Assembly (NCBI RefSeq): GCF_031127875.1
Contig: NZ_JARXIA010000010.1
Span: 1 to 64,000, forward strand
Reading direction: 5' to 3'
Source of the DNA: Pelagicoccus sp. SDUM812005
GTDB lineage: Bacteria > Verrucomicrobiota > Verrucomicrobiia > Opitutales > Opitutaceae
Length of the DNA stretch: 64,000 nt
Shown here: positions 25,020 through 38,629 of the stretch, piece by piece
How positions within the stretch are numbered: the first letter of the stretch is position 1
How the letters are laid out: each line of letters starts with the position of its first letter
Made by a program: the position numbers and the translations under genes
Notes under the pieces: generated by a model
Told to the model about the DNA's origin: nothing
The model's database searches: none
What the model saw: the letters and a program-made list of their open reading frames with translations, nothing else

Positions 25020-25090
25020 CAGCGAACGATCGGTCTGCAAAACGCGCCGCGGGTTTGTCTTTCGCGTCATTTCCCTCTGAGTTGCTTGCC

Positions 25091-26230
25091 ATGACTGTTG
25101 AGAATACCCCTAAGCTTCTTTCCTGCCTCGCCGCTTCGACCCTGGCCTTCCTGCTGGCCGCCTGCACGCCCTCCGAGGAGGCGGCAGTCGGGTATGTCGA
25201 GCCAGGTGTCGAGGCGCCGCTTTCGATTTCGGACGCGGCGCCGGGACGGTTTCCCGAGGTCTCGATCGCTAACGTGTTCGAGCCGCCGGGCGAATCGAAC
25301 GTGCGTTCCTCTTTCAGGCTTGCCGAGAACGTAGCGTTGATCGGAACGGAAGAGACGGGTGACGTATTCAAAAGCTCTGACGGGGGCGAAACGTGGACGA
25401 AGCAGATCGACGGCGGGGACTTGTGGGGCTTGGACGACGTTCGCAACTACCTGCGCGCGGACGACGGAAATCTTTACATCACGACTTCGGAGCCGGCCCT
25501 CGTTTGCCGCTCGGAGGACGAAGGCGCGAGCTGGGAGGTGCTGGCCCGTCCCCAGTCCTCGCGCACGGTGGGGATCGTGCAGCTCGATAACGGGGACCTG
25601 CTGGTTGGCTTGCGGCGAGCGGAGCAGTTGCAGACCAGCATCGTGCGGTCGGACAATTATTTCGAGAGTTTCGAATGGGTACCGGTTTCGGACGAAAAGC
25701 CTCCGCAAAACACGACCTGCTTCCACAATTTGGGTGGGCCCAACGTCCTCGTAGGAGTCGGCTACGAAGCTTCCGGAAAAATCTACAAGTCGACGGACCA
25801 CGGCCGGACTTGGGAGAAGAAGGCCGACTATCCAGAGGCTCGGGACATGATGTGGTTTTTCGAGTCGGACGGGAAGGTGTATCTTTTGGCCTCAGGGGTG
25901 GCGACGCTCTACGTCAGCGATGACGAAGGGGAGAGCTGGCGGAAGCATCGCCAGTTTTGGGAAAAGGGTTTTCTCGGCATGGCTCAATCCTACCAGAAGG
26001 GCGGGAAGGATTACCTGCTGTTGACGGCGACGGACCAGACGAAGAAGCCGTATCGCCATGTGGTTCTGATTTCGGACGACCAGACCAAGACCTGGTACGA
26101 GTGGATCGAGCTCGACCAAGACGTGACGGGGGGAGCGAGCAACCTGGCGGTGCTCTCCGAAACGCGGATCGTAGCGGGCACGGGCAATCACTCCGCCCAA
26201 GGCAAGGCTTTTACCTTGCAGGTGGAATAG
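25091..26230 (+). CDS. Exported lipoprotein with Asp-box (BNR) beta-propeller
   Basis: A 379-aa lipoprotein (lipobox LLAAC, Cys25; the start at MTVENT gives a proper leader). Four clear Asp boxes of form S-x-D-x-G-x-T/S-W are at about 95-102, 141-148, 234-241 and 276-283, and a degenerate fifth (SDDQTKTW) is near 330. This is the fold of sialidase-like and other BNR-repeat proteins. I see no sialidase FRIP/arginine triad that would prove glycosidase activity, so it may be a glycan-binding or unassigned hydrolase. It sits beside polysaccharide-degrading genes. Confidence 0.8.
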   Translation: MTVENTPKLLSCLAASTLAFLLAACTPSEEAAVGYVEPGVEAPLSISDAAPGRFPEVSIANVFEPPGESNVRSSFRLAENVALIGTEETGDVFKSSDGGETWTKQIDGGDLWGLDDVRNYLRADDGNLYITTSEPALVCRSEDEGASWEVLARPQSSRTVGIVQLDNGDLLVGLRRAEQLQTSIVRSDNYFESFEWVPVSDEKPPQNTTCFHNLGGPNVLVGVGYEASGKIYKSTDHGRTWEKKADYPEARDMMWFFESDGKVYLLASGVATLYVSDDEGESWRKHRQFWEKGFLGMAQSYQKGGKDYLLLTATDQTKKPYRHVVLISDDQTKTWYEWIELDQDVTGGASNLAVLSETRIVAGTGNHSAQGKAFTLQVE

Positions 26231-26296
26231 ATTGGGCAGGCCGCGCGCCGATTCGGTGACAATGTCCGGCTGGCGACCTTTGCGAGGTGTTTCTGT

Positions 26297-26337
26297 TTGA
26301 CTGAATATTCCGACAAAGGAATATGCAAATGTCGGAA
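26297..26337 (+). promoter_or_regulatory. arsC promoter with nested operator palindromes
   Basis: -35 TTGACT (26297-26302) is followed by a 17-bp spacer and a weak -10 AATATG. The spacer contains ATATTCC (26305-26311) / GGAATAT (26318-26324). Overlapping this is TTCCGACA (26308-26315) / TGTCGGAA (26330-26337). The first half is nearly identical to the site upstream of acr3 at 38830-38854, so arsC and acr3 probably share a regulator. Confidence 0.6.
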
Positions 26338-26432
26338 TTCTTAACTGCAAGTTGAACCTTGCGGGGAGGGAGACCGCTTGTCGCGTTTTGGAAGCGACGC
26401 TCTTGGTAAACGGAACTTAGCACCTAACTCTG

Positions 26433-26942
26433 ATGGATAAACTGAACGTTCTCTTTCTGTGCACTGGCAACAGCGCCCGCAGCATTCTCGCTGAATACAT
26501 CCTGCGCAAGCGGGACCCGCTTCGTTTCGCGGCCTACAGCGCGGGGGCCAGCCCGAAGGACGAGCCGCACCCGATGGCTCTGAAGGTCTTGAAGGAGCAA
26601 TTCCATGTGGACGTGTCGGAAGCCCGGAGCAAGTCGTGGGACACCTTTGCGGGGAAGCGTTTCGACATCGTGATAACAGTTTGCGACAACGCCCGTGAGA
26701 CTTGTCCCGTTTGGCCGGGGCAGCCGATCGTGGCTCACTGGGGGTCGCCCGATCCGGCGGCGTTTGTCGGGAGCGAGGAGGATACGTATCGATTTTTCAA
26801 GGACGTCGCGATCCAGATTTCTCGTCGCATCGATTTGTTGACGGCCTTGCCCTACGAAAAGCTTTGGCAGAACTACCGTCTCAAGTTCGAGGAAGACGTG
26901 AAGCGGATCGGCGAGCAAGCGACCTTCGGAACTGTGTCCTGA
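26433..26942 (+). CDS. arsC: Arsenate reductase, LMW-phosphatase/thioredoxin-coupled type
   Basis: Cytoplasmic reduction of As(V) to As(III), 169 aa. The P-loop CTGNSARS (Cys10-Ser17) and the redox pair Cys84/Cys91 in VCDNARETCPVWPG match the pI258-type ArsC layout (Cys10, 82, 89). A plain LMW phosphatase would lack that pair. It stands apart from the minus-strand ars genes but carries the same GAATATTCC-type operator as acr3, so it likely feeds arsenite to that exporter. Confidence 0.93.
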   Translation: MDKLNVLFLCTGNSARSILAEYILRKRDPLRFAAYSAGASPKDEPHPMALKVLKEQFHVDVSEARSKSWDTFAGKRFDIVITVCDNARETCPVWPGQPIVAHWGSPDPAAFVGSEEDTYRFFKDVAIQISRRIDLLTALPYEKLWQNYRLKFEEDVKRIGEQATFGTVS

Positions 26943-26971
26943 TCGTAGATGAGTTTTAGCTGGGCTGGTGG

Positions 26972-27000
26972 CGCCTCGGTTTGAGGGCGTTCCTCTTTTT
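26972..27000 (+). terminator. Probable arsC terminator
   Basis: CGCCTC and GAGGGCG form a short stem with one bulged G, followed by TTCCTCTTTTT, 30 bp after the arsC stop. It lies between convergent genes. Confidence 0.4.
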
Positions 27001-27014
27001 GGGGCAGCTTGTCC

Positions 27015-28307
27015 TTAGTATTGGAGCTGCAGCATGGTGCGGGCGCCGAAGGATTCGGCTTTCGCTTCAGTGCCGTCGAGGGCGTCCTGGCTTTTTCCAT
27101 ACACGAGCCCGAATTGCAGCTTGAGGTTGTCGCCATGGAAGAAGTAGTTGCCGCCAAAATAGGCTTCTTTCAGTGTATCCATAGTTCCACCACTTGGTGC
27201 TGAGCGTACTGCGTCGGAGAGGTTTATGCCACGTCCGTCGCTGTCGACATAGCTGTAGCGAAAGACGCCTTCCCACTTTTCGGAGAAGCGGTAGCTAGGC
27301 TGGATGAAGTATCCCCACGAATTGGAATCCTGTCCGGGGGCGGCGCCTTGCTCGTTGTCGCTGCTCATGATTTCGGAGCTTACGCGGAAGTTGTTTTGGG
27401 AGTAGTCGAAGAAAAGGGATCCGACGAGGAGATCGTCGCCTGCTCCCAGAACGGTTCCTCCTTGGTCGGGCAGGTAACCGAAGGAAACGCCGCTGTGCAG
27501 GTAGCCGTCGCCGATCGCTTGCTTGTAGCCAGCGTAGGCCCAAGGGGCGATGCCGTTGTTGGAGTCGTTTCCGGCGCTGGTGGGGCTGCTGATGCGTTCC
27601 GGATTGGTGAGCGCTATTTGGTAGTCCCAGTTGCCGTTCTTGCCCTTGAGAAAGACGCCGTTACGGTAGACGCCTGCTCCGAGGCGGCGCCCGTTGTTGG
27701 GTTCGACGAAGAAGCGGGTGACGGCGGAACGTTCGATGGCCTTGAGGCTGCCGCTGGAGGTTTGAAATTCCTCGAAGCCGAAGGGGACCTTGGTGAGGCC
27801 GACGTTGAGGCTATTCCGGTCGTTGAGTTCCCAGTCGATGTAGGCTGCGTCGAAGTTGGACGAAGCGAAATCGTAGGTTATGACCGCGGTGGCGTTGTCG
27901 ACGAGCTGGCCTTTGATTCCGAAGTAGGCGCGGCGTATGAAGAGGTGGTTGGTATCCGCGGGGTCGCCAGCGTTGTCGATATCGGTGCCGATGGCTGCGT
28001 ATTGGGCTTGAAGCCGCGTAGAGAAGGCCAGTTTTTCCAGGGCTCCGGCCTTTGCGGTAGGGATTACGGCCGTGGGTTTGGGAGCAGGCTGGGCTGCGGG
28101 GGGCGGCTCGTTTTTCTGTCGGGCTTCGGCGACGAGCGACTCGGCCTCGGCTTTGGTGATGACGCCTTTTTCAACGAGGAGGTTGAGAATGTCGGCGTTG
28201 CTTTGGGCGTGCGTTAGGGTTGCGGCAGTGAGGCTGGCGAGGGTCGCGAGCAGCTTGGCGGCGCTCGCGAGTCGTGAGCCCATACGGGGGGATGGGATCG
28301 CGTTCAT
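27015..28307 (-). CDS. OprO/OprP-type phosphate-selective porin
   Basis: 430-aa outer membrane protein with a signal peptide (about 1-34), a short coiled segment (ILNLLVEKGVITKAEAESLVAEAR) and a 16-strand-type porin barrel (LQAQYAAIGTDIDNAGDP, HLFIRRAYFGIKGQL) ending in an aromatic-rich YGKSQD...TMLQLQY terminus. OprO/P porins pass phosphate and polyphosphate, and arsenate is a phosphate analogue. It is the last gene of the arr-like operon, 28 bp after the chaperone gene, so arsenate entry is a reasonable inference. Confidence 0.85.
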   Translation of the reverse strand: MNAIPSPRMGSRLASAAKLLATLASLTAATLTHAQSNADILNLLVEKGVITKAEAESLVAEARQKNEPPPAAQPAPKPTAVIPTAKAGALEKLAFSTRLQAQYAAIGTDIDNAGDPADTNHLFIRRAYFGIKGQLVDNATAVITYDFASSNFDAAYIDWELNDRNSLNVGLTKVPFGFEEFQTSSGSLKAIERSAVTRFFVEPNNGRRLGAGVYRNGVFLKGKNGNWDYQIALTNPERISSPTSAGNDSNNGIAPWAYAGYKQAIGDGYLHSGVSFGYLPDQGGTVLGAGDDLLVGSLFFDYSQNNFRVSSEIMSSDNEQGAAPGQDSNSWGYFIQPSYRFSEKWEGVFRYSYVDSDGRGINLSDAVRSAPSGGTMDTLKEAYFGGNYFFHGDNLKLQFGLVYGKSQDALDGTEAKAESFGARTMLQLQY

Positions 28308-28335
28308 AATGGATCGTTATGTATTTGGATTTTGA

Positions 28336-28944
28336 TTACGGTTTGACGATGCGAAGGCAAAATTTGGCCAGGGCTTGGTAGAATGGGTGGAGGGCTTCGA
28401 CGGCTAGAATGGTGTCGGCGAAGTCGGCCACCCAAGGGTCGAAATGGCCTTGGCGAAAGTCGTGATAGCGCTGGAGCCAAGTTGCGTCCTTGGTAGTGAG
28501 GAACTGATGGGCGAGAAAGTAGAGGAACTCGCATTCCGACACGATGTGGTCGGGCGCATCGCAGGGACCTTCGGCGGGAGCGAGGCCGGCTGCAGCGTAG
28601 TGGCGGGCCACCTCTTGGCTGACGGTTCCCATGAGGCGTTGCTCGGGATCGAGATAGAAGGAGGCGTAGGGGGCGGCCTTGATCTCGAAGGGGCCGAGAA
28701 AGAGTCGAGCGTAGTCGCGCAGTGCTGCGGTACGGTCTGCCGTGGGGACGAGCTGCCATTGGCGGGCGAGCTCGAGTCCGATTGCGTTCAGGTCTAGGTC
28801 GCTTGCAGCTAGCGTTTCCCTTAGCAATCGTGGCTCGTCTTCCGTGAACTCGCTGGGGCTTTTGAAGGCGTTGGCGAGCAGAAGGAAGAGGTTGGCGGTG
28901 GGAGCGTCGAGCTGAGGCTTAGTAGTCACGGATGTAGTGGACAT
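28336..28944 (-). CDS. arrD: TorD/DmsD-family chaperone (ArrD-like)
   Basis: 202-aa all-helical cytoplasmic chaperone for a molybdoenzyme. The N-terminal helices and the motif EFLYFLAHQF with the preceding DAPDHIVSECE (family D-H-x-x-x-E block) are typical of TorD/DmsD. It would hold the Tat-exported catalytic subunit until cofactor insertion. It overlaps the ferredoxin gene by 26 bp, showing tight coupling. The gene symbol depends on the arrA assignment. Confidence 0.85.
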   Translation of the reverse strand: MSTTSVTTKPQLDAPTANLFLLLANAFKSPSEFTEDEPRLLRETLAASDLDLNAIGLELARQWQLVPTADRTAALRDYARLFLGPFEIKAAPYASFYLDPEQRLMGTVSQEVARHYAAAGLAPAEGPCDAPDHIVSECEFLYFLAHQFLTTKDATWLQRYHDFRQGHFDPWVADFADTILAVEALHPFYQALAKFCLRIVKP

Positions 28945-29623
28945 TGGGACGGGTTCCTTTTTCTGGTTTTAGGACGCGGGACGCGTGATCGCGCAGGGCT
29001 ATTGAGACGGGGCTTTCCGGATCTTTCTTGTCGCCGAAGATGCGGGCGTCGGCAGGGCAGGCCTCCACGCAAGCCGGTTGTTCGCCGACCGCGAGTCGGT
29101 GGTCGCAGAAGGTGCATTTCTCGACAATGCCTTGGGGGCGTATTCCCGGATAGGTGGTCGCGCGGGTCGGGTTGTAGACGGGAATCGGAACGTCTGCGGC
29201 TTGGGCGGCTTCCGGTCCGGTGGAGGTGCAGCCCGCGATCGCTGGCTTGAGGTATTCGCGGTAGTGGCGGTGCGGGCGTTCCTGGTTGAAATAGATGACG
29301 CCGTAAGGGCAGGCTTGCTGGCAGGCGCGGCAGCCGATGCATTTGTCGGCGTCGTGCATGGTGAGCCCGTTGTCGTCCTTGTGCATGGCGGTGGTCGGGC
29401 AGTGGGCCACGCAAGGGGCATCTTCGCAGTGGTTGCAAAGGGTTGGGATGTAGCGGAAGGAGGTGTTGGGAAAGGTGCCTCGGGTTTCCAGGATATGGTT
29501 GGACCAGGCGAAGCTGTGCTGGACGTTGTTCTCGCGCTTGCAGGCGATGTCGCAAGCGGAGCAGCCGACGCAGCGGTGCAGGTCGATGACCATGGAGTAC
29601 TGTCTTTTGGTGGCCGTTTTCAT
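28919..29623 (-). CDS. arrB: Four-cluster ferredoxin subunit (ArrB-like)
   Basis: 234-aa electron-transfer subunit with four [4Fe-4S] binding sets: C18-C21-C24-C28, C63-C66-C71-C75, C95-C98-C101-C105 and a C-terminal CTFC...C...C set. It belongs to the DmsB/PsrB/TtrB/ArrB group and carries no signal, consistent with export alongside the Tat-bearing catalytic subunit. To my recollection ArrB of Shewanella has the same length. It follows the catalytic gene by 20 bp and should pass electrons from the NrfD-type membrane subunit to it. Confidence 0.9.
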   Translation of the reverse strand: MKTATKRQYSMVIDLHRCVGCSACDIACKRENNVQHSFAWSNHILETRGTFPNTSFRYIPTLCNHCEDAPCVAHCPTTAMHKDDNGLTMHDADKCIGCRACQQACPYGVIYFNQERPHRHYREYLKPAIAGCTSTGPEAAQAADVPIPVYNPTRATTYPGIRPQGIVEKCTFCDHRLAVGEQPACVEACPADARIFGDKKDPESPVSIALRDHASRVLKPEKGTRPNVHYIRDY

Positions 29624-29643
29624 TTTTCCGAAAAGGGTTTAGG

Positions 29644-32256
29644 TTAAACTTTCTCGACCTTTACGCGGGCCGGGCCTCCGTGACGTGCGGTGGCACCGGA
29701 GAGACGCTCGTACTCGGGCGGAAGGATAATGTTGTTGTTGCCGCCGCGGGGAAGCTTCTTGTCGAAGTCGGCTGCGGCGACGCGACCGTAGGCCCAATGG
29801 CCTTGGCCATAGCATTTCGCCACGGTTCCCGGCCGTACGCCTTCCCAGAGCTTGAGGGTGACGGTGATGGCTCCGGTAGTGGAGGTTACCTTGACTTGGT
29901 CCTTGTTGCTTAGGCCGAGTCGGCGGGCGTCGACCGGGTTCATCTTGAGTACGTCGTCCCAGTTTTCGTCGCCAGGGTCGGCGTTTTTGTGGGCCTGGTA
30001 CCAGGTGCAATTGGCAGAACGACCTTCGCGGTTGAGACGGCTGCGGTGCTCGAAGAAGATGAAGGGAAATTCCTTTTCGTCGCCGTGTCGCAGGGCTGGC
30101 TCGAAGTGCGGGACGAACGCTTGCTCGCCGCGGGCCGTGTAGTTGGTGGCGGCCAGAACCTCGTCGATAGAGGCGTCGTTTTTCGTCGCATGGCCATCGA
30201 GGGCCTTCTTGAGGGTCTCGCTGTAGAATTCGAACTTGCCGGTGGCGGTGCCGAAGTTGCCCCACTTGGTTTGGCACTCGTAGCGTTTAGAGTTCCAGAC
30301 TCCTTTGGCCACGAAATCGTCCCAGCCGCCGAGCTTGTCGCCGTACTTTCCGTAGTCCTTATGGGAGGCGTCCCAGCAGGGACGAGTGAGCATTTTCGTA
30401 GCGTAGAGGGCGAATTCCTCGCCGTTGGCCGGCTGCTTGCCGGTTTCCGGATCAGCGAACTCGTCGTTGAAATATCGATACAAATTGTCCCAGCCTTTCT
30501 CCGCCAGCTTTTCGGCGAGCATCCAGGGAATCTCCGTCTCGTCTTGCCGTACGTCCCAGATGGGCTTCACGACCGGCGCCGTGAGGGTATTGTAGCCGTA
30601 GAGGTTTTGCTTGCTCTTGAGGAAGCTCCACTTTTCGGCGATTTGGTGGGCGGCCGGCAGCACCACGTCGGCGAAGTGGGACATTTCCGACGCGTTGGTG
30701 GTGATGTGAACGAAGAAGGGGATTTTGGTCAGGGCCCGTTCCCAGCGTTCGGCGCCGGAGCAGGAGAATGCGAAGTTGGCCCAGTTGGCTATGGCCACCT
30801 TGATGTCGTAGGGATCCTCGTTGAGGATAGCGTCGGCGGTATTGTTGGTGACAACTCCACTTCCGCTCTTCCCTTCCTTCAAGGATGGGAAGGCGAGGGT
30901 TCCGCGGTGATCGATCTTCTTTTGCTTAGCGTTCTTCTTGGCCAACTCGTCCTGGTAGGCGGAAAAGTCGGGGATCGAATCGGCGACGACTTTGGTCTTT
31001 TGCACCGTGCCGCCGATGTGGTCGGCCGAGCCCACCAGTCCGTTGAGGGCGTGGGCGGCCATGGCCGAGTAGCCGCCGCGGGCTTGCATGGCAGCCCCCG
31101 GAGAAAGCCAGCTAATCGCCCGAGGAGCAGCTTCAGCGAACTCGATCGCGACCTGACGGATTTGGCTCGCCGGGATCCCGGTGCGTTCGGCGGCCCATTC
31201 GGGGCTGCGGTCCTTGAGCTCGAGGTTCCACCATTTGACCACTCCGTGGCTATGGATTTCGTTGAAAAGATCGGGGTCGACTTCCTTGCCAGCGACGAAG
31301 CGATTGTCCTTGTCGGTGAAGTCGCCGACGAATTCCTTGCTCCACATGCCTTCGGTGAGGATGACGTGGGCCATGGCGACGGCTAGGGCGCCGTCTTCGC
31401 CTGGAATGACGGGCAGCCAGTGGTTTGCTTTCGCCGCGGTGGCGGAGAGGCGCGGGTCGATGACGGCGATTTTCGCTTGGTCTCGGACCTTGCCCCAAAT
31501 GTTTATGGCGTGAGGCACTTGGCGATTGGACGAGAGCGGATCGGCGCCCCAGCAAAGAACGTAGCGCGTGTGCTCCAAGTCGTAGTCCCGGTAGTCCCAG
31601 TACCCTTCGGTGTAGTAGGCTCCGAACTTTTCGGCTTCGGCGCAGATGGCGGAGTGGCTGATGCCGTTGGGGGAACCGTAAATTTTCGGGAGGGCGGAGT
31701 AGAGCAGGTCGCGCAGGTAGCTGTATCGACCACGCAAATACAAGAACTTGTGGGTTTCATCGTTCGCCCTCAGTTCAAGCATCTTGTCCGCGATCATGTC
31801 CATGGCTTCATCCCAGGATATGGGGACGAAACCGGGGTCTTCGTGCCGTCCTTTTTTCGGATTGGTCCGTTTCATGGGGACCTTGACGCGGTCGGGGTCG
31901 TAGAGCTGTTGCAGAGAAAGGTGCGGACGCGGGCAGATCTTGCCGTGGTTGGCCAAGCTGAAGGGATTGCCGCGCACGTCGGTGACCCGGTTGTTGATCA
32001 CCTTGAGTTGGACGGGGCACCACGAGGTGCAGCCTTGGCAGGTGGAGGCTAGCCATTTTCCGGCAAGCGCGGCAGCGGATGCGGCAGAGGCGGCGGAACC
32101 CGGTACGGCGGCTTGGGCGAAACGACTGAGGACCGGGCCCCCGCCCACGGCGCAAAGCAGGGAGCTTCCGATGACGTTGCGCAGAAAGTGGCGCCGGCTG
32201 AGGCCTGCGGCGGACTCTGTGGTTGTCGTTTCGTCTGTAGAAAGCAGATCTTTCAT
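29644..32256 (-). CDS. arrA: Molybdopterin oxidoreductase, probable respiratory arsenate reductase catalytic subunit
   Basis: 870-aa periplasmic DMSO-reductase-family enzyme. A Tat signal with SRRHFLRN (20-27) sets the start at MKDLLS; the frame is open much further upstream but that part overlaps the NrfD gene. The [4Fe-4S] motif is C73-x2-C76-x3-C80-x27-C108. Active-site residues LRGRY (Arg177, Tyr178) and HSAICAEAEK (His201, Ser202, Cys205, Lys210) plus Tyr222 have exactly the spacing I remember for Shewanella ArrA (R165, Y166, H189, S190, C193, K198, Y210). The GRGWG-type word associated with ArxA is absent. Alternatives are tetrathionate, thiosulfate or polysulfide reductases, but the Cys ligand context and the ars genes favour ArrA. 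Confidence 0.82.
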   Translation of the reverse strand: MKDLLSTDETTTTESAAGLSRRHFLRNVIGSSLLCAVGGGPVLSRFAQAAVPGSAASAASAAALAGKWLASTCQGCTSWCPVQLKVINNRVTDVRGNPFSLANHGKICPRPHLSLQQLYDPDRVKVPMKRTNPKKGRHEDPGFVPISWDEAMDMIADKMLELRANDETHKFLYLRGRYSYLRDLLYSALPKIYGSPNGISHSAICAEAEKFGAYYTEGYWDYRDYDLEHTRYVLCWGADPLSSNRQVPHAINIWGKVRDQAKIAVIDPRLSATAAKANHWLPVIPGEDGALAVAMAHVILTEGMWSKEFVGDFTDKDNRFVAGKEVDPDLFNEIHSHGVVKWWNLELKDRSPEWAAERTGIPASQIRQVAIEFAEAAPRAISWLSPGAAMQARGGYSAMAAHALNGLVGSADHIGGTVQKTKVVADSIPDFSAYQDELAKKNAKQKKIDHRGTLAFPSLKEGKSGSGVVTNNTADAILNEDPYDIKVAIANWANFAFSCSGAERWERALTKIPFFVHITTNASEMSHFADVVLPAAHQIAEKWSFLKSKQNLYGYNTLTAPVVKPIWDVRQDETEIPWMLAEKLAEKGWDNLYRYFNDEFADPETGKQPANGEEFALYATKMLTRPCWDASHKDYGKYGDKLGGWDDFVAKGVWNSKRYECQTKWGNFGTATGKFEFYSETLKKALDGHATKNDASIDEVLAATNYTARGEQAFVPHFEPALRHGDEKEFPFIFFEHRSRLNREGRSANCTWYQAHKNADPGDENWDDVLKMNPVDARRLGLSNKDQVKVTSTTGAITVTLKLWEGVRPGTVAKCYGQGHWAYGRVAAADFDKKLPRGGNNNIILPPEYERLSGATARHGGPARVKVEKV

Positions 32257-32267
32257 GGCTGGCAAAG

Positions 32268-33218
32268 TTAGAAGATTGAAGTTGCGGCGGGTGGTACTTG
32301 ACCGGCGAGGACGAGGGCCAACCGGAAGAAGAAGGCGCCGACGACGATCAGGGCGCTGCTGGTGGCGATGACGCGGATTTGCTGACGGCGGTGGCTGGCC
32401 TCTCCCTGCAGGATTGACCAAAGGCCGAGGAGCAAGGGAAGGATGAGGCCGATGCCGATGCCGATGCCCCAGAAAACCGGGCCGTAGGCGCGATTGGCTG
32501 CTTCGAGCGCTTGCTGGGCATGCATGCCGCCAAGCCGAAGATCGAGCCACCAGAGCACGAAGGTACCGAGCTGGAGAATCAGGAGGGCCCCCATGACGTT
32601 CCGAACCATGGCGAGATCGTTGAGAAAGGTGGCTATGTGGTCCTGTTGGTCTAGGCGGCCAGCCCATTTCATGCGGGCCAGGTGGACCAGCAAGACGATG
32701 GCGATGCCGCTGGTAGCAAAGCTGAGCAAGGCGGCGATGACGGTCGGCCCGGTATTCCAAAGCGGATGGGATACCATGGTGGAAAGCAACATGCCATGAT
32801 AGGAGCCGACGATCAGGGTTAGCGGAGCAAGCGCCCAACCGAGACCGCGGCGCAGGGAGACGTTCTGGTCGGGCCGGTTCCAAAGGAATGCGTAGACGAC
32901 TCCGCCTCCCACCACGAGCGGTTGGAAGATGCCGCCCCACCAGAGTGGAGAGGTTAGGTTGGCGTTGAGGTAGGTATGGTAGGCGTGGAAGGGCCGACCC
33001 ATTTTTATCATGATCAGGAGCAAGCCGGCCGAAACGAGTACAGGTGAGAGCCAAGCGGCCGTGTGGCAGATGCGTCGGTATTTGCCATGGAGGACGGCAT
33101 CGAGGAGGATGGCGAAGAGGAGGGCTCCGACTCCGGCCCCTCCGAGGAAGAGGTCGAGGGCGACTTTCCAGTCCCAATAGGGACCGGACTGGGTGAGGTA
33201 GACGATTTCGTCAGACAT
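32268..33218 (-). CDS. arrC: NrfD/PsrC-family membrane quinol-interacting subunit (ArrC-like)
   Basis: 316-aa polytopic membrane protein with about eight to nine TM helices (WKVALDLFLGGAGVGALLFA, AWLSPVLVSAGLLLIMIKMG, WALAPLTLIVGSYHGMLLS). This is the NrfD/PsrC fold that oxidises quinol and passes electrons to a ferredoxin subunit. The ATG at MSDEIV is chosen because it follows the regulator gene with an 8-bp overlap. It lies 11 bp before the catalytic gene. Some arr operons use such an anchor in place of CymA. Confidence 0.88.
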   Translation of the reverse strand: MSDEIVYLTQSGPYWDWKVALDLFLGGAGVGALLFAILLDAVLHGKYRRICHTAAWLSPVLVSAGLLLIMIKMGRPFHAYHTYLNANLTSPLWWGGIFQPLVVGGGVVYAFLWNRPDQNVSLRRGLGWALAPLTLIVGSYHGMLLSTMVSHPLWNTGPTVIAALLSFATSGIAIVLLVHLARMKWAGRLDQQDHIATFLNDLAMVRNVMGALLILQLGTFVLWWLDLRLGGMHAQQALEAANRAYGPVFWGIGIGIGLILPLLLGLWSILQGEASHRRQQIRVIATSSALIVVGAFFFRLALVLAGQVPPAATSIF

Positions 33219-33690
33219 GGTTTTTCCTTTCCTTGCAGGCACAGGATGCCTCGTTTTCTGGGGGTGAAACTGAATTGAGGTGAGTCTCGTGGGCGATGAC
33301 GTCGGCCAATGTTGTCTGCTTGAGATGCTCGCGAATGCGCTCTCGCTCCACGCTCCAAAATTCGTGGACGGGGCAGCTTCGCTCGTCGCTGCAGGTCGCC
33401 ATGCCAAGCAGGCAGCGATCGAGGGTATGCGGACCGTCGATCGCGTCGTTAATATCCAAGACGGAGAGGCTGCAGGCGGAGCGGTGGAGCCAAGCGCCGC
33501 CGTTGGGACCGGGCTTGGAGGCCAGAATCTCGGCTTTGACCAGCTTCTTGACGAGCTTTGCCAAGTAGGAGGCGGGGACGCCTGAACAGCTTGCGATCTC
33601 CTTGACAGTTCGAGGCTGGCCAGAACAGGAGCCCTCGAGGCAAGCGAGCGCTTGGATTGCGTAACCGACGCTTTGGGAAAGACAGAACAT
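33211..33690 (-). CDS. Rrf2-family regulator with Fe-S cysteine triad
   Basis: About 159 aa from the MFCLSQSVGYAIQAL start, which matches the canonical Rrf2 N-terminus better than the Met 12 codons upstream. A winged helix (TVKEIASCSGVPASYLAKLVKKL) is followed by Cys93, Cys100 and Cys106, the pattern that binds an iron-sulfur cluster in IscR/NsrR relatives. It is the first gene of the arr-like operon and overlaps the NrfD gene, so it probably regulates arsenate respiration in response to redox state, oxygen or NO. Two matching palindromes lie just upstream. Confidence 0.9.
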   Translation of the reverse strand: MFCLSQSVGYAIQALACLEGSCSGQPRTVKEIASCSGVPASYLAKLVKKLVKAEILASKPGPNGGAWLHRSACSLSVLDINDAIDGPHTLDRCLLGMATCSDERSCPVHEFWSVERERIREHLKQTTLADVIAHETHLNSVSPPENEASCACKERKNHV

Positions 33691-33721
33691 GGCTGGAACT
33701 GCCTTCTGTTCTGCAAAAAAA

Positions 33722-33759
33722 GACAAACATGTCTATAATTAATAAAGGACAAGTATGTC
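33722..33759. promoter_or_regulatory. Paired Rrf2-type operators
   Basis: GACAAACATGTC (33722-33733) and GACAAGTATGTC (33748-33759) share the form GACAA-N2-ATGTC and are spaced 26 bp apart, about 2.5 helical turns. They bracket an AT-rich TATAAT-like hexamer upstream of the Rrf2 gene. They are the best candidates for the regulator's own binding sites. Confidence 0.55.
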
Positions 33760-33856
33760 TTTAAATAAGAATGAATGCGGTGGATTAGAAGGTTTTATGA
33801 CTAACTCCTCTTGTGTTCTCGTCGTCGTAGGCAGCAAGTGGTGGCCTGGGCTGTTG

Positions 33857-34564
33857 CTAGCCTGTGGTCGCAATCAGGTAGGCGCCTCCTGCCAGGAGCA
33901 GGGCTCCGCAGATCCGACGGAGCCATTTGCCTCCAGGGCTGGAACCTTGCCAGGCTAGCCAACGTTGTACCCATTGGCTTGATACGCCGGCTATCGCAAT
34001 AACGATGCAGTGTCCGAGTCCGAATGCGGCAAGGAGAGCGAAAGCGTAGGCAGGAGCTGTGGGAGCAATCTGAAAAGTGAGCCCGAGTACGGGAGCCATG
34101 AATCCGAAGGTACACGGACCGAGAGCGATGCCGAAGAGAAGTCCGAAAATGAGGGCGCCCCAGGGACCGCGGCGGGATTGGTTGGGCGCGGGTCGCCAGG
34201 CGTCGGGAAGCGGCAGGAAGTCCAGCAAGTGGAAGCCGAAGATAATGAAGACGGCGGCGACCGCGTAGTTTCCCCAGTAACCGAGGTCACCGAGCATACG
34301 ACCTGCCGCGGCGGTAATGCCCCCGATCGCTGCGATGGAAGCTAGTATGCCGACGGCAAAGAGGATGGATAATCCGGCAGCTCTTCGTGGCGAGGTTATC
34401 CGTTGCCCATCCTGGAGGAATCCGACAATTAGGGGGATGCTGGCAAGATGGCAGGGGCTTAGGACGATGCTGAGAACGCCCCAGGCGAAGGCGGCCGCTA
34501 GGGCTGCTGTTGGCGCTCCGGCCAGGGCTTCGCTAAGCGAGGTGAAGACTGATTCGAGTGTCAT
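33857..34564 (-). CDS. CcdA/DsbD-type transmembrane thiol transporter
   Basis: 235-aa membrane protein with six or so TM helices and a cysteine in each symmetric half: VLSPCHLASIP and ALGPCTFGFM. This is the CcdA/DsbD core, which carries reducing equivalents from cytoplasmic thioredoxin to the periplasm. Its start overlaps the stop of the thioredoxin lipoprotein gene by ATGA, so the two very probably work as a pair. It is the last gene of the arsR operon. Confidence 0.88.
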   Translation of the reverse strand: MTLESVFTSLSEALAGAPTAALAAAFAWGVLSIVLSPCHLASIPLIVGFLQDGQRITSPRRAAGLSILFAVGILASIAAIGGITAAAGRMLGDLGYWGNYAVAAVFIIFGFHLLDFLPLPDAWRPAPNQSRRGPWGALIFGLLFGIALGPCTFGFMAPVLGLTFQIAPTAPAYAFALLAAFGLGHCIVIAIAGVSSQWVQRWLAWQGSSPGGKWLRRICGALLLAGGAYLIATTG

Positions 34565-35010
34565 GCTCGATCTGGTCTGTTCGGGCTCGAAGGAGGGGCG
34601 AGAAGCTTGAGTCGCTTTAGCGTCTCAACGACTTCCTCCTTCGGCCAATGGCCTTCGTGCCGGAAGCGTTCGACGCCATCGGCATCGAGGATTATTTGCG
34701 TAGGGATGATGCGGATACCGAATTTGGCGCCAGCGGAGCGATCGGCCCAAACGTCTATAAAGCTATCTTGGATTTGTCCCGAATACTCTTCGGCTATGGC
34801 ATTGCGCACAGGGATCATTTGTTTGCAAGGGATGCACTTGTCGGCTCCGAAGTTGACCATTTGAGGCAAGGGTTCTGAGTTTGCAGAAACTTCGGTAGTG
34901 ACCTCGGGGGTCGCTGCGGACGCTTTTGCCAGATCGGTCTGGGGCTCGCTTGAGCAGCTCGCGAAAACGAATACAGAAAGAATTGAGAGTACCTGTATTG
35001 GAAACTTCAT
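34561..35010 (-). CDS. Thioredoxin-fold lipoprotein
   Basis: 149 aa with lipobox FASC and a thioredoxin domain holding the redox motif CIPC (about 59-62, in DKCIPCKQM) and the cis-proline segment RIIPTQIILD. It is exported and anchored. Together with the translationally coupled CcdA protein it makes a complete periplasmic reductant relay. Its place in an arsR operon suggests it reduces disulfides or an arsenic-handling partner outside the cytoplasm. Confidence 0.88.
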   Translation of the reverse strand: MKFPIQVLSILSVFVFASCSSEPQTDLAKASAATPEVTTEVSANSEPLPQMVNFGADKCIPCKQMIPVRNAIAEEYSGQIQDSFIDVWADRSAGAKFGIRIIPTQIILDADGVERFRHEGHWPKEEVVETLKRLKLLAPPSSPNRPDRA

Positions 35011-35019
35011 GACGAAAGA

Positions 35020-35256
35020 TTATTGTCCAATGAGTTTTTGAAGTTCTTCGAGATTTGGAACGCGTCCTGCGACTTTAAGCTCGCCGTCGACGGCGAGAGC
35101 CGGGGTGTACATGACGCCAAAGTCGGCGAAGCGCATCATGTCGGTGATCTTCTCGACCTCATAGTCGATGCCGAGCGCGTTGGCGGCCGCTTTAGCGGCT
35201 TCTGTGAGTTGGTTGCATTTGGTGCAGCCTGTTCCTAGGATTTGGATCGTTTTCAC
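35020..35256 (-). CDS. Glutaredoxin-like thioredoxin protein (TM0996/MTH895 family)
   Basis: 78-aa cytoplasmic mini-thioredoxin with CTKC in ILGTGCTKCNQL and the cis-Pro region GVMYTPALAVDGE. This family is frequently encoded beside arsR and ars-type permeases, which fits here. It begins 9 bp before the thioredoxin lipoprotein gene. The exact electron donor or target is unknown. Confidence 0.9.
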   Translation of the reverse strand: MKTIQILGTGCTKCNQLTEAAKAAANALGIDYEVEKITDMMRFADFGVMYTPALAVDGELKVAGRVPNLEELQKLIGQ

Positions 35257-35342
35257 TTTGTTTTGGTTGCTGGATACGTATTGGTGAAGTGGTTACAGAG
35301 ACTTTTCGTATGTTTTTTTGACGGCTAGGATTCGTGCCGGTC

Positions 35343-35696
35343 CTATTGCTGGGTGACGGGCAAAAGAGCGAGGACGAGGACCAGTAAGATTCCCGTTCCG
35401 AGACCGCCGACCAGCCATAGCGAGCGTTTTTTGGATGCGGCTTGCCAGAGCCAGCGCCAATGCATGAGGAGGTGAGCGAAGACGAGGGCTATTAACGCAT
35501 AGCCGAGCCAAGTGTGGAGTTCTCCCCATTGGTGGCGCGTTAGGCCTAGGGCGGAGAGGCCTCGTCCGCCGTGGGATCCAGGAGGCAAGCGGAAGGCGAT
35601 AAGCAGGCCGAGGCCGCTGAGGGCGCAGAAGACAAACCAGAGGGAGAAGTTGAGGGCTCGGTTTATCGTGAGATTGGAGAGTTTCGGCTGTTTCAT
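35343..35696 (-). CDS. DUF4405-like small membrane protein
   Basis: 117 aa with three TM helices and several conserved His residues (TRHQWGELHTWLGYAL, AHLLMHWRWLW), the pattern of DUF4405 / cytochrome b561-like proteins that may bind heme. It sits between the permease and the thiol-redox genes, suggesting a link between membrane redox and the arsenic operon. Its function is not established. Confidence 0.7.
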   Translation of the reverse strand: MKQPKLSNLTINRALNFSLWFVFCALSGLGLLIAFRLPPGSHGGRGLSALGLTRHQWGELHTWLGYALIALVFAHLLMHWRWLWQAASKKRSLWLVGGLGTGILLVLVLALLPVTQQ

Positions 35697-35715
35697 GTTT
35701 GTATTCTTTGTTGCT

Positions 35716-36146
35716 TTAATTGACGGCGAAGAAAGATCCGTAGAACCAACCCGAGAGGGTGGCCATGACGACGACGAGACCGACGTAGGCGGCAGTTTTC
35801 TTAGGGCCGATCACAGTGTTGATGACCAGCATGTTGGGTAGGCTGAGCGCAGGGCCGGCGAGAAGGAAGGCAAGGGCGGGGCCGGACCCCATGCCGCTGC
35901 CAAGTAGGCCTTGCAGAATGGGAATCTCGGTGAGGGTTGCGAAATACATGAGAGCGCCGGCTACGGAGGCGAAGGCATTGGCGGCGAGTGAATTGCCTCC
36001 CACGGACTCGCTGATCCACGTAGCGGGAATCAGCCCTTCGTGGCCGGGACGACCGAGCAGGAGTCCGGCGACCAGAACGCCGCCAAGCAGCAAGGGCATG
36101 ATCTGCTTGGTGTAGGTCCAGGTTTGGGAAAACCATTCATTTGCTT
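35716..36146 (-). pseudogene. C-terminal part of the split permease (second frame)
   Basis: This frame encodes the C-terminal membrane half of the permease (QTWTYTKQIMPLLLGGVLVAG through ALAFLLAGPALSLPNML). It has no plausible start where it joins the first half; the first Met is at 36099, inside a TM helix. Removing one G from the run of eight G (plus-strand C 36147-36154) fuses it in frame with the upstream part through GEANEWFSQTW. It is therefore part of one protein, made by frameshifting or slippage, or broken by a mutation or sequencing error. Confidence 0.75.
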
Positions 36147-37024
36147 CCCCCCCCAGCTCCGACGGTGAGCCAAGCCAGCCCGAGCGTGGCGACCAGGAAA
36201 GGCCATATGGGTTGTCCGGGTACGAGGAGCGCTACGCTTAGCGTTGCCGTGACGACGACGCTTAGCTTGGCGATGTTCAGTCCAAACCATTTCCAAAGTT
36301 CGAGGACGAAGCTTGCCGCGAGGATCGTCACCAGCAGCCACTTGATTCGGTAGATTGCCGAGAAAAAATCATGGCCCTCCGGTTCGCCGCCCCAGTTGGC
36401 GAAAACGAGGATTCCGACCATGGTGGCGAAGAATGTCGCCGTTTGCCAGAGTGGACGTGTCGCTTCCGGCAGGGGAAGGTCGGCTGCCTTGGCTGTCTTT
36501 TCCTTTTCTTCTTTGCGGAAGAGCCATGCCATGGCGAGGCCAATGAAAATGCTAAAGACGATTGCTCCGATCGCTCGAGCCAGTCCAAGCTCGAAGCCTA
36601 GCACCTTGGAGGTAAGAATGATGGCCAAGGCGTTGATGGCAGAGCCGGAGTAGAGAAACGCTGCGGCCGGTCCGAGCCCTGCTCCCATGCGATAGATGCC
36701 CGCGAAGAGAGGGAGTACGGTGCAAGAGCAAACGGCCAGGATAGTGCCGGAAACGGACCCCACTCCGTAGGCAAGTGGCTTGGAGGCCTTGGGTCCTAGG
36801 TATCGCATGACCGAGGCTTGGGAGACGAAGGCGGCGATTCCGCCTGCGATCCAGAAGGCCGGAAGCAGGCAAAGCACCACATGCTCGCGGGCGTACCACT
36901 TGCTGAGTTCAAGGGCCTCGGTCAGGGCCGCGTCGAATCGAACTTGTCCGACTGGTAGGAAGTAGAAACCGAGGAAGGCTGCCGCCAGTATCAAGAAGAT
37001 CTTTGTTTCCCGTTTTCGGTTCAT
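36137..37024 (-). CDS. ars-associated permease (UPF0718/ArsP-like), N-terminal part
   Basis: About 295 aa of a polytopic permease with the motif AVCSCTVLPLFAGIYRMGAGLGPAAAFLYSG, characteristic of the YraQ/ArsP permease superfamily that exports metalloids or metals. The Met at MNRKRE is chosen because the more upstream Met lies inside an 18-bp operator. The frame ends abruptly in GGGSK after a poly-G run, and the rest of the transporter continues in another frame directly downstream. It is the second gene of the arsR operon. Confidence 0.82.
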   Translation of the reverse strand: MNRKRETKIFLILAAAFLGFYFLPVGQVRFDAALTEALELSKWYAREHVVLCLLPAFWIAGGIAAFVSQASVMRYLGPKASKPLAYGVGSVSGTILAVCSCTVLPLFAGIYRMGAGLGPAAAFLYSGSAINALAIILTSKVLGFELGLARAIGAIVFSIFIGLAMAWLFRKEEKEKTAKAADLPLPEATRPLWQTATFFATMVGILVFANWGGEPEGHDFFSAIYRIKWLLVTILAASFVLELWKWFGLNIAKLSVVVTATLSVALLVPGQPIWPFLVATLGLAWLTVGAGGGSK

Positions 37025-37031
37025 GATTGTA

Positions 37032-37049
37032 TTTCGTAAATATGCGAAA
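37032..37049. promoter_or_regulatory. ArsR-type operator upstream of the permease
   Basis: TTTCGTAAATATGCGAAA is an 18-bp near-palindrome that differs at few positions from the perfect palindrome upstream of arsR. It ends 7 bp before the permease ATG, within the arsR-permease gap, so the regulator may also act inside the operon. Confidence 0.65.
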
Positions 37050-37066
37050 TAATAAGCCAAAAAAAG

Positions 37067-37390
37067 CTAGCTGCAGCAGTTCGCTTTTGAAGTGGAGAGC
37101 AGGTCGGGAAATTCGCCCGGGCTTTCCAGGCAGGCGATGAAGCGGCCGACGCATGGGAGCGTGAGGCGGTAGTAGACCTGCAGTCCGCGCTTGTCGTCCG
37201 CTACGATTCCGGCCTCTCGCAGCACGGAAAGGTGGCGAGAAACGGTTGACCAACCCAGTCCCGCCGCTTCGACAAGCTCGCAAACGCAGCGCTCCTGTTC
37301 GGACAGCGCCTTGACGATCGTAACGCGGGCGGGATGTCCGAGAGCTTTGAATACCTCGTGAGGGGGGACTGCAACTTGGCTTGTTCTCAT
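37067..37390 (-). CDS. arsR: ArsR/SmtB-family metalloid-responsive repressor
   Basis: 107 aa from MRTSQVAV; two earlier in-frame Met codons fall in or beyond the operator and are rejected. The winged helix contains ERCVCELVEAAGLGWSTVSRHLSVLREAGIV. The CVC pair in the helix is the classic As(III)/Sb(III) sensing site of ArsR, and the C-terminus ends in NCCS, a second cysteine pair. A perfect 18-bp palindrome 13 bp upstream implies autoregulation. It heads an operon with the permease and thiol-redox genes. Confidence 0.93.
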   Translation of the reverse strand: MRTSQVAVPPHEVFKALGHPARVTIVKALSEQERCVCELVEAAGLGWSTVSRHLSVLREAGIVADDKRGLQVYYRLTLPCVGRFIACLESPGEFPDLLSTSKANCCS

Positions 37391-37403
37391 GTGCTGGATA
37401 GTG

Positions 37404-37428
37404 TTTCGCATAAATGCGAAATAGTCAA
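37404..37428 (-). promoter_or_regulatory. arsR promoter and 18-bp operator
   Basis: TTTCGCATAAATGCGAAA (37404-37421) is a perfect palindrome. On the minus strand it directly follows a -35 TTGACT (37423-37428), so it fills the promoter spacer. The same -35 word occurs at the arsC and acr3 promoters. A second copy of the palindrome is at 37032-37049. Confidence 0.72.
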
Positions 37429-37485
37429 GGTCGCATTTGCTAGGCTCTGGCGAGCTTGTTCGCAGCATGCGAAAGGGAGGGCGCT

Positions 37486-37508
37486 AAAAAGCGGGCGAAG
37501 TCGCCCGC
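37486..37508 (-). terminator. Rho-independent terminator of acr3
   Basis: On the minus strand GCGGGCGA pairs with TCGCCCGC (37491-37508) across a two-base loop and is followed by TTTTT. It lies about 48 bp after the acr3 stop and before the arsR promoter, separating the two ars transcripts. Confidence 0.8.
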
Positions 37509-37555
37509 CTTTCGGGAGAACGGTAGCGACCTCGCGGTGATACCGTGGGGTTATC

Positions 37556-38629
37556 TCAGGCGAAGAGCCGTTTGCGGAACCAGAAGGCCAGGTTGACGAG
37601 GGCGATCATGACGGGGACTTCCACGAGCGGGCCGATGACGGCGGCGAAGGCTACGCCGGAGCCGATTCCGAAGACTGCCACGGCCACCGCGATGGCCAGT
37701 TCGAAGTTGTTGCTGGCTGCCGTGAAGCTGAGGGTGACGCTCTGGCGGTAGTCGGCTCCCACCATTTTGCCCATCAGGAAGCTGACCACGAACATGATGA
37801 GGAAGTAGATCGTCAGGGGCACGGCGATGCGCAGGACGTCGAAGGGAAGTTCGAGGATGGTGTCGCCCTTGAAGGTGAACATCAGCACGATGGTGAAGAG
37901 CAGGGCGATCAAGGTGATGGGGCTGATCTTCGGGATGAAGACGGTTTCGTACCACTCGCGTCCCTTGAGCTTAACGCCGACGAAGCGGGTAAGCATGCCG
38001 GCGATGAAGGGGATGCCCAAGTAGATGAAGACGCTTTTGGCGACGTCGCCCATGGTGATGGCGACCACGCTGCCCTCCAGGCCGAATACGCCCGGTAGCC
38101 AAGTTATGAATACCCAAGCGTAGATGCTGAAGAAGATGATTTGGAAGACGCTGTTGAAAGCGACCAGTCCGGCGGCGTATTCGTTGTCGCCTTCGGCCAA
38201 CTCGTTCCAGACGATGACCATGGCGATGCAGCGGGCCAGCCCGATCAGGATGACGCCGGTCATGTACTCCGGGTGTCCGCTCAGAAAGGCGATTGCCAGT
38301 CCGAACATGAGGACCGGGCCGATGATCCAGTTTTGGATCAGCGAGAGGCCGAGGACCTTCACGTTGCGGAAGACCCGGTGCATTTCCTCGTAGCGAACCT
38401 TGGCGAGCGGCGGGTACATCATGAGCACGAGTCCGATCGCGATGGGGATGTTGGTAGTGCCGACCTGGAATTGGTCGAGGAATCCGGTGGCTCCGTCCCA
38501 GGTGGCTCCGAGGGCGACTCCGGCAGCGATGGCGAGGAAGATCCAGAGCGTTAGGAATCGGTCGAGGAAACCGAGTTTCTTGCGGGCGGGATCGCAGGCT
38601 CCGGGAATGGATTGGCTGGCAGGTTTCAT
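37556..38629 (-). CDS. acr3: ACR3-family arsenite efflux transporter
   Basis: 357-aa membrane protein of normal ACR3 length with about ten TM helices. Family motifs include [18 protein letters not shown], the conserved TM4 cysteine in [19 protein letters not shown] and [17 protein letters not shown]. It extrudes arsenite made by ArsC or entering from respiration. It is preceded by a 32-codon membrane ORF and its own promoter with a GAATATTC operator, separate from the arsR operon. Confidence 0.95.

Follow-up and report, generated by a model that had tools for sequence, protein, structure and literature searches.

A predicted ArrCABD arsenate-respiration operon in the verrucomicrobium Pelagicoccus sp. 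SDUM812005

Here, we analyze 64,000 nt of contig NZ_JARXIA010000010.1 from Pelagicoccus sp. SDUM812005 (positions 1 to 64,000, forward strand; hereafter, the window), which very probably encode a complete ArrCABD system for facultative menaquinol:arsenate respiration. This reading rests on the families of the subunits, the placement of the catalytic subunit among ArrA proteins, the gene order, and the presence of menD in the host genome. The host contig (218 kb) belongs to a genome of 6.65 Mb that is 99.5% complete with 1.4% contamination, and that falls in the same order as Coraliomargarita sp. SDUM461004 (Verrucomicrobiota; genome G121) and in a different family. The probable verrucomicrobial origin proposed by a first-pass annotation of this DNA is thereby supported. 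The same annotation had placed a four-gene ArrA-type operon at 28336-33218, and these coordinates are exact, with open reading frames (ORFs) as claimed. The four genes are as follows.

32268..33218, minus strand: arrC, NrfD/PsrC-type membrane anchor, 316 amino acids (PF03916, E 5.6e-30)
29644..32256, minus strand: arrA, catalytic molybdopterin subunit with a twin-arginine translocation (Tat) signal, 870 amino acids (NF041714, match to 6cz7, trees, and fold)
28919..29623, minus strand: arrB, ferredoxin-type iron-sulfur subunit, 234 amino acids (NF041715; 6cz7_B, E 1.3e-80)
28336..28944, minus strand: arrD, TorD-family maturation chaperone, 202 amino acids (PF02613, E 2.1e-25)

The order is thus C-A-B-D on the minus strand (33218..28336), and all four arr frames are open and of full length. 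In ORF coordinates, 11 bases separate arrC from arrA and 20 bases separate arrA from arrB, while arrB and arrD overlap by 26 bases, which is an operon-like spacing. According to a passage in PMC2500031, the Arr clade is marked by an arrCAB or arrAB gene order; in the window, arrC lies upstream of arrAB and the ferredoxin is of the ArrB type. The best NCBIfam model for the small subunit is indeed ArrB, and its phmmer match to 6cz7_B, together with the PF03916 and PF02613 matches, agrees with the earlier description of a ferredoxin subunit of ArrB length, an NrfD anchor, and a TorD-type chaperone beside the catalytic subunit.

Judged by its sequence, the catalytic subunit is ArrA. The top NCBIfam model for this protein is ArrA (NF041714, 1137.6 bits), with PhsA at 244.6 bits and TtrA at 76.5 bits, in a comparison that listed 25 of 26 families, the AioA model not being among them. 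A phmmer search against Shewanella ArrA (6cz7) gave an E-value of 1.6e-299, far beyond chance, and the window protein aligns with it over residues 65-870. Over aligned columns, the window ArrA is 53.6% identical to Shewanella ArrA, 63.1% to that of Mesobacillus selenatarsenatis SF-1, 33-34% to three ArxA proteins, 26.3% to PhsA, and 24.5% to a TtrA-like protein. It is the tree and overall identity that carry the assignment; only one of the active-site residues considered below, Tyr178, cleanly separates ArrA from ArxA.

The input to the trees comprised 80 relatives (the best of 370 found in named genomes), six ArxA rows (Cereibacter azotoformans ORIO, Sulfuricella denitrificans skB26, and four others), one PhsA and one TtrA-like protein (so labeled after their best-scoring NCBIfam models, PhsA and TtrA), the window protein, Shewanella ArrA, and a partial sequence from the same-family genome G042. 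Two trees were built, a quick one of 64 rows, which took in 53 of those 80 loci, and a careful one of 35 rows, with 24 of them. In the 35-row tree, the window protein sits inside ArrA (support 100/98) and ArxA forms a group apart (100/100); the 64-row tree gives a like placement. Because the outgroups are few and long-branched (the PhsA and TtrA-like proteins, with no AioA or PsrA rows), these trees settle the split between ArrA and ArxA rather than relations among ArrA, PsrA, and TtrA. For the references used (ArxA, PhsA, and TtrA-like), the phylogeny agrees with the ArrA identity originally proposed. Membership of ArxA is ruled out by the RGRY motif, the ArrA-clade placement, the 33-34% identity, and the low profile scores, and membership of PhsA or TtrA by profile scores, tree placement, and identities of 26.3% and 24.5%, respectively.

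The Tat motif (SRRHFL), the cysteines of a [4Fe-4S] cluster (Cys73/76/80/108), and the Mo-ligand Cys205 are present in ArrA, and the Tat signal and Cx2Cx3Cx27C motif reported earlier could thus be located. So are RGRY at 175-178, HSAIC at 201-205, Lys210, and Tyr222. In the 6cz7 alignment, every active-site residue listed in the first-pass annotation (Arg177, Tyr178, His201, Ser202, Cys205, Lys210, and Tyr222) is matched with its Shewanella counterpart; the constant offset of 12 is the one given in that annotation against the Shewanella numbering. While this pairing holds in full alignments, the residue set is a weaker ArrA marker than had been claimed because it is largely common to ArxA. This emerged from an alignment of the window protein to six ArxA rows and 82 further Arr rows. 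Arg177, His201, Cys205, and Tyr222 are invariant in all covered Arr and ArxA rows, the residue at 202 is Ser in 80 Arr rows and three of five ArxA rows, and at 210 Lys is found in 78 Arr rows (three have Asn) and, again, in three of five ArxA rows. Position 178 is Tyr in 80/82 other Arr rows (Ser in L068, gap in L007) and Gly in 5/6 ArxA rows (gap in L107). The listed set thus mostly marks a joint ArrA/ArxA family, in which Tyr178 distinguishes ArrA from ArxA, consistent with a rule stated in PMC6549141 that ArxA carries XGRGWG and ArrA (R/K)GRY.

Structural modeling strengthens these assignments. The ArrA model, which was built from 24 own and locus sequences, has a predicted local distance difference test (pLDDT) score of 79.3, residues 818-832 and some other stretches being of low confidence. 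Its first match is 6cz7 (TM score 0.88, E 4.8e-99), and the next protein is the polysulfide reductase PsrA (E 1.3e-37). For the ArrC model (pLDDT 85.6), the lowest PDB E-value is that of 2vpw_C (7.7e-6, TM score 0.52), the PsrC chain of a menaquinone-bound polysulfide reductase; subunits of alternative complex III are listed after PsrC by E-value, with higher TM scores (0.69-0.74). Both kinds of match are NrfD-like subunits, as described in PMC8076601, and quinol oxidation is proposed in PMC2500031 to occur at ArrC.

From these features we infer the direction of catalysis, its regulation, the role of a neighboring porin (see below), and the benefit for growth, which would be as follows. After ArrD-assisted maturation, folded ArrA would be exported by Tat, pair with ArrB, and dock on ArrC. 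Menaquinol would be oxidized by ArrC, and the electrons would pass first to the clusters of ArrB, then to the [4Fe-4S] cluster of ArrA, and finally to the molybdenum-bis(pyranopterin guanine dinucleotide) center, where periplasmic arsenate would be reduced to arsenite. An Rrf2-family regulator probably gates expression by redox state, the porin probably admits arsenate to the periplasm, and the host, a facultative marine Verrucomicrobium, would use ArrCABD once oxygen is exhausted. The host is probably a facultative aerobe with menaquinone. Its genome contains a menD match over its cut-off and seven COX1-type matches, of which two are aa3-like fragments and one, of the cbb3 type, exceeds its cut-off, and menaquinone-7 is given in PMC11165907 as the major quinone of Coraliomargarita. 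Following an argument made in PMC2500031, menaquinone supplies the driving force for arsenate reduction, which would thereby be energetically favored over arsenite oxidation.

Several observations nevertheless weigh against respiratory use of the operon. Both ArrA (1137.6 bits) and ArrB (NF041715, 307 bits) score under the NCBIfam equivalog cut-offs, which are 1600 and 450 bits. No scanned protein reaches the ArrA cut-off, which is hence without a positive control: seven other Arr-clade proteins score 1097-1291 bits, among them that of SF-1 (1119.9 bits), a bacterium that respires arsenate, while two ArxA proteins score 438 (Cereibacter) and 431 bits and PhsA scores 170 bits. Since the seven also fall below 1600, this cut-off looks narrow. 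A survey of NrfD-like proteins (PMC8076601) put ArrC only in Gamma-/Betaproteobacteria and Euryarchaeota. Anaerobic growth is not assured because the host has several haem-copper oxidases and an obligately aerobic habit is stated for Coraliomargarita akajimensis (PMC3035286) and for two comparison strains (PMC11165907). Finally, the trait may be dispensable, since a relative (G136) holds a decayed copy.

The terminal oxidases of the host would suit an enzyme that runs mainly in reverse, as an ArxA-like periplasmic arsenite oxidase feeding the quinone pool in aerobic or microaerobic growth, and the active-site residues are mostly common to ArxA. Moreover, the sister rows of the window ArrA include sequences from Halomonas, Azohydromonas, Elioraea, and Haliea, all of them Proteobacteria, for which ubiquinone is generally regarded as the usual quinone. 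We consider this unlikely in view of the ArrA motif and clade and of the menaquinone pathway gene, a low-potential quinone disfavoring arsenite oxidation by the argument of PMC2500031. In addition, no second ferredoxin gene (arxB2) and no ArxXSR-like set was found among the neighbors scanned at 25055-38629, unlike in L089 and L116, although the absence of arxB2 alone is weak evidence since four bacterial arx genomes also lack it, as noted in a passage of PMC6549141.

That the arr genes, though intact, are silent or on their way to being lost and now serve no function appears very unlikely. Such a scenario would account for their patchy distribution, the decayed G136 copy, and the frameshift in an ArsP-type permease of this island, but none of the four genes is interrupted or truncated, and ArrA shares 79% identity with its counterpart in a genome from another family. 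We give least credence to a related reductase with polysulfide, thiosulfate, tetrathionate, or selenate as its main substrate; the enzyme superfamily is the same and ArrC resembles PsrC, but the low identities to PhsA and TtrA-like proteins, the ArrA tree placement, and the arsenic genes on both sides all argue otherwise. Facultative arsenate respiration by ArrCABD hence remains the preferred reading.

The ArrCABD operon is bordered by two genes that its transcription unit probably takes in as well, since the first shares 8 bases with the start of arrC and the second begins 28 bases past arrD.

33211..33726, minus strand: Rrf2-family regulator (PF02082, E 3.3e-28)
27015..28307, minus strand: phosphate-selective porin O/P family (PF07396, E 9.8e-19)

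We compared these flanks across the 14 nearest loci (the window and L009-L021, L009 being the arr locus of Coraliomargarita sp. SDUM461004). Rrf2 relatives lie 5' of arrC in six of them (window, L009, L012, L013 as a partial frame, L017, and L019). The motif CX6CX5C is found in the proteins of the window, L009, L012, and L017, and the Cys triad is incomplete in L019; by this motif, the Rrf2 protein may be an Fe-S sensor. Sigma-54-type regulators are found upstream in L010 (by Pfam) and in L018 and L020 (by eye), no upstream regulator was recognized in L014, L015, or L016, and the contigs of L011 and L021 start ~250-310 bases before arrC. Porin_O_P matches occur in all 13 other genomes searched, and are linked to arr in 4 of the 14 loci, directly 3' of arrD in the window, L009, and L019, and at a distance of 1.5-2 kb in L013; by position and strand, none is beside arr in the remaining ten. 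Common descent of this linkage is unproven because the porins resemble each other only in part, with just 25-36% identity over stretches. A phmmer search with the window porin, too weak for the purpose, detected none of these porins, that of L009 included. As arsenate resembles phosphate, it is a reasonable guess that the porin is a possible entry channel for arsenate through the outer membrane. Both the Rrf2 and porin genes flank arr in Coraliomargarita sp. SDUM461004 too. It is conceivable, though we put this forward as a tentative proposal, that marine Verrucomicrobiota, Planctomycetota, and other phyla share a distinct arsenate-respiration module, in which an Rrf2 protein acting as an Fe-S redox switch accompanies arrCABD and some lineages add a dedicated phosphate-type porin that admits arsenate. 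Degraders of seaweed polysaccharides could then turn to arsenate when living in anoxic sediment or particles.

Arsenic genes lie on both sides of the operon (arsC-type on one; arsR and acr3 on the other), in keeping with its described location within an ars island.

26433..26942, plus strand: arsC-type cytoplasmic arsenate reductase for detoxification (TIGR02691, E 3.1e-23, under cut-off; PF01451)
33857..34564, minus strand: CcdA-like protein (PF02683)
34561..35010, minus strand: thioredoxin-like protein (PF00085)
35716..37060, minus strand: ArsP-type permease, frameshifted into ORFs 36137..37060 and 35716..36099 (PF03773 positions 10-150 and 179-292)
37067..37468, minus strand: ArsR-family regulator (PF01022, E 7e-18)
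37556..38629, minus strand: acr3 arsenite efflux transporter (TIGR00832, 448.1 bits, over cut-off)

Genes similar to those for the CcdA-like and thioredoxin-like proteins lie close to arr in L017 and to the arx genes in L089. The L017 relative of the ArsP-type permease also matches in two frames, and the break in the window is either a sequencing error or a damaged gene. A GH95 gene and four sulfatases near the operon, GH95 being a fucosidase family, make a sulfated-fucan setting credible. The combined arsenate-respiring and sulfated-fucan-degrading lifestyle is a prediction from the genome.

The distribution of ArrA is patchy. Among 141 relatives, the window ArrA matched in four, which are its own genome, the same-family G042 (partial contig), G121, and G136 (decayed copy), and no match was found in the seven other genomes of the genus included there; of 384 genomes sampled from the class, three matched (its own genome, G121, and the decayed G136). 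Among the best 80 of 370 relatives, the closest ArrA is that of L009. The clade around the window ArrA mixes Planctomycetota, Gemmatimonadota, Acidobacteriota, Halieaceae, Halomonadaceae, Azohydromonas, and Elioraea, and because it spans several phyla, it suggests horizontal spread of arr. The G+C content of the arr stretch (57-61%) is not set apart from the flanks (53-62%), no tRNA gene was found within the 64-kb window, and 33 pattern matches in viral contigs included none coding for a relative. No orthologous empty site could be demonstrated in the genus through the flanking GH95 gene because its best matches in other species are at most 41% identical. In G136, which is of the same genus as G121, positions 1-7330 of L136 (contig 5), compared with L137/L138, hold a decayed arr operon in pieces 93-99% identical to G121. 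Most adjacent pieces share ~8-15 bases at their joints, and the adjoining 4.5 kb is 97% identical to G121, followed by 72-80%. Recent transfer and subsequent loss would explain this pattern, as would an assembly artefact where the contig ends.

Other loci in the set were observed in passing. RGRY ArrA-type enzymes occur in Halomonas, Azohydromonas, and Elioraea (L022-L024, L027, L028, and L030), and in Halomonas/Azohydromonas a polyferredoxin gene lies just 5' of arrC (L022 4025-5971, L023 3980-5884, and L024 3905-5620); the N-terminus of the L023 protein matches TatA/B, so that it looks like a Tat-ferredoxin fusion. On a Raoultella planticola plasmid (L119 5061-5474), all that is encoded of an ArrA relative is its C-terminal part, with 59.7% identity across query residues 712-860; IS21-family genes are close by, a ferredoxin gene follows, and a permease and an ArsR gene lie further along. 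A Citrobacter freundii plasmid (L118 1007-6402) carries a tetrathionate-reductase-like set beside arsenic resistance genes, its large subunit having TtrA as best model (663 bits against a cut-off of 1750).

While the kind of enzyme is already known, the host lineage and the regulator and porin linkage are new parts. A passage in a soil survey (PMC6543643) describes arrA of Proteobacteria and Firmicutes, and our word searches of the open-access literature found, among the papers listed, no report of ArrA in Verrucomicrobiota or of Rrf2 with arrA, which is weak evidence of absence. Near-complete genomes of a phylum best known for breaking down polysaccharides are predicted to hold a complete arsenate-respiration operon, for which a named relative, Coraliomargarita sp. 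SDUM461004, could serve as a test case. An active operon could allow carbon from sulfated algal sugars to drive arsenate reduction, releasing the more mobile and toxic arsenite. The presence of this clade's ArrA in presumed ubiquinone users would offer a natural test of whether it is the quinone that decides which way the enzyme runs.

How the window locus compares with known systems can be summarized as follows. It has in common with ArrAB of Shewanella sp. ANA-3 (6cz7) the ArrA and ArrB subunits, the active-site residues, and the fold, but it encodes ArrC upstream whereas Shewanella, as described in PMC2500031, has only ArrA/ArrB and uses CymA. The C-A-B-D order and the NrfD-type anchor are also found in M. 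selenatarsenatis SF-1 (L037, a Bacillota arrCABD); there, no Rrf2 gene is seen upstream, although its contig gives just ~125 bases before the arrC frame, and a Gram-positive host would not be expected to have an outer-membrane porin. ArxB2ABCD (Cereibacter pORIO3 and Sulfuricella pSCD) has paralogous subunits and a TorD protein, and pORIO3 also has arsenic genes nearby. It differs, however, by its GRGWG motif, an anchor gene after A and B, an extra ferredoxin gene before A, adjacent sensor-kinase and binding-protein genes, and an identity of 33-34%. The closest likeness is to Coraliomargarita L009 and metagenome-assembled genomes of Planctomycetota (L011-L013 and L017), with ArrA proteins 72-79% identical in loci of the same C-A-B-D order. 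All of these but L011 share the upstream Rrf2 gene, and the porin gene is shared by L009 and, at a distance, by L013, but not by L011, L012, or L017.

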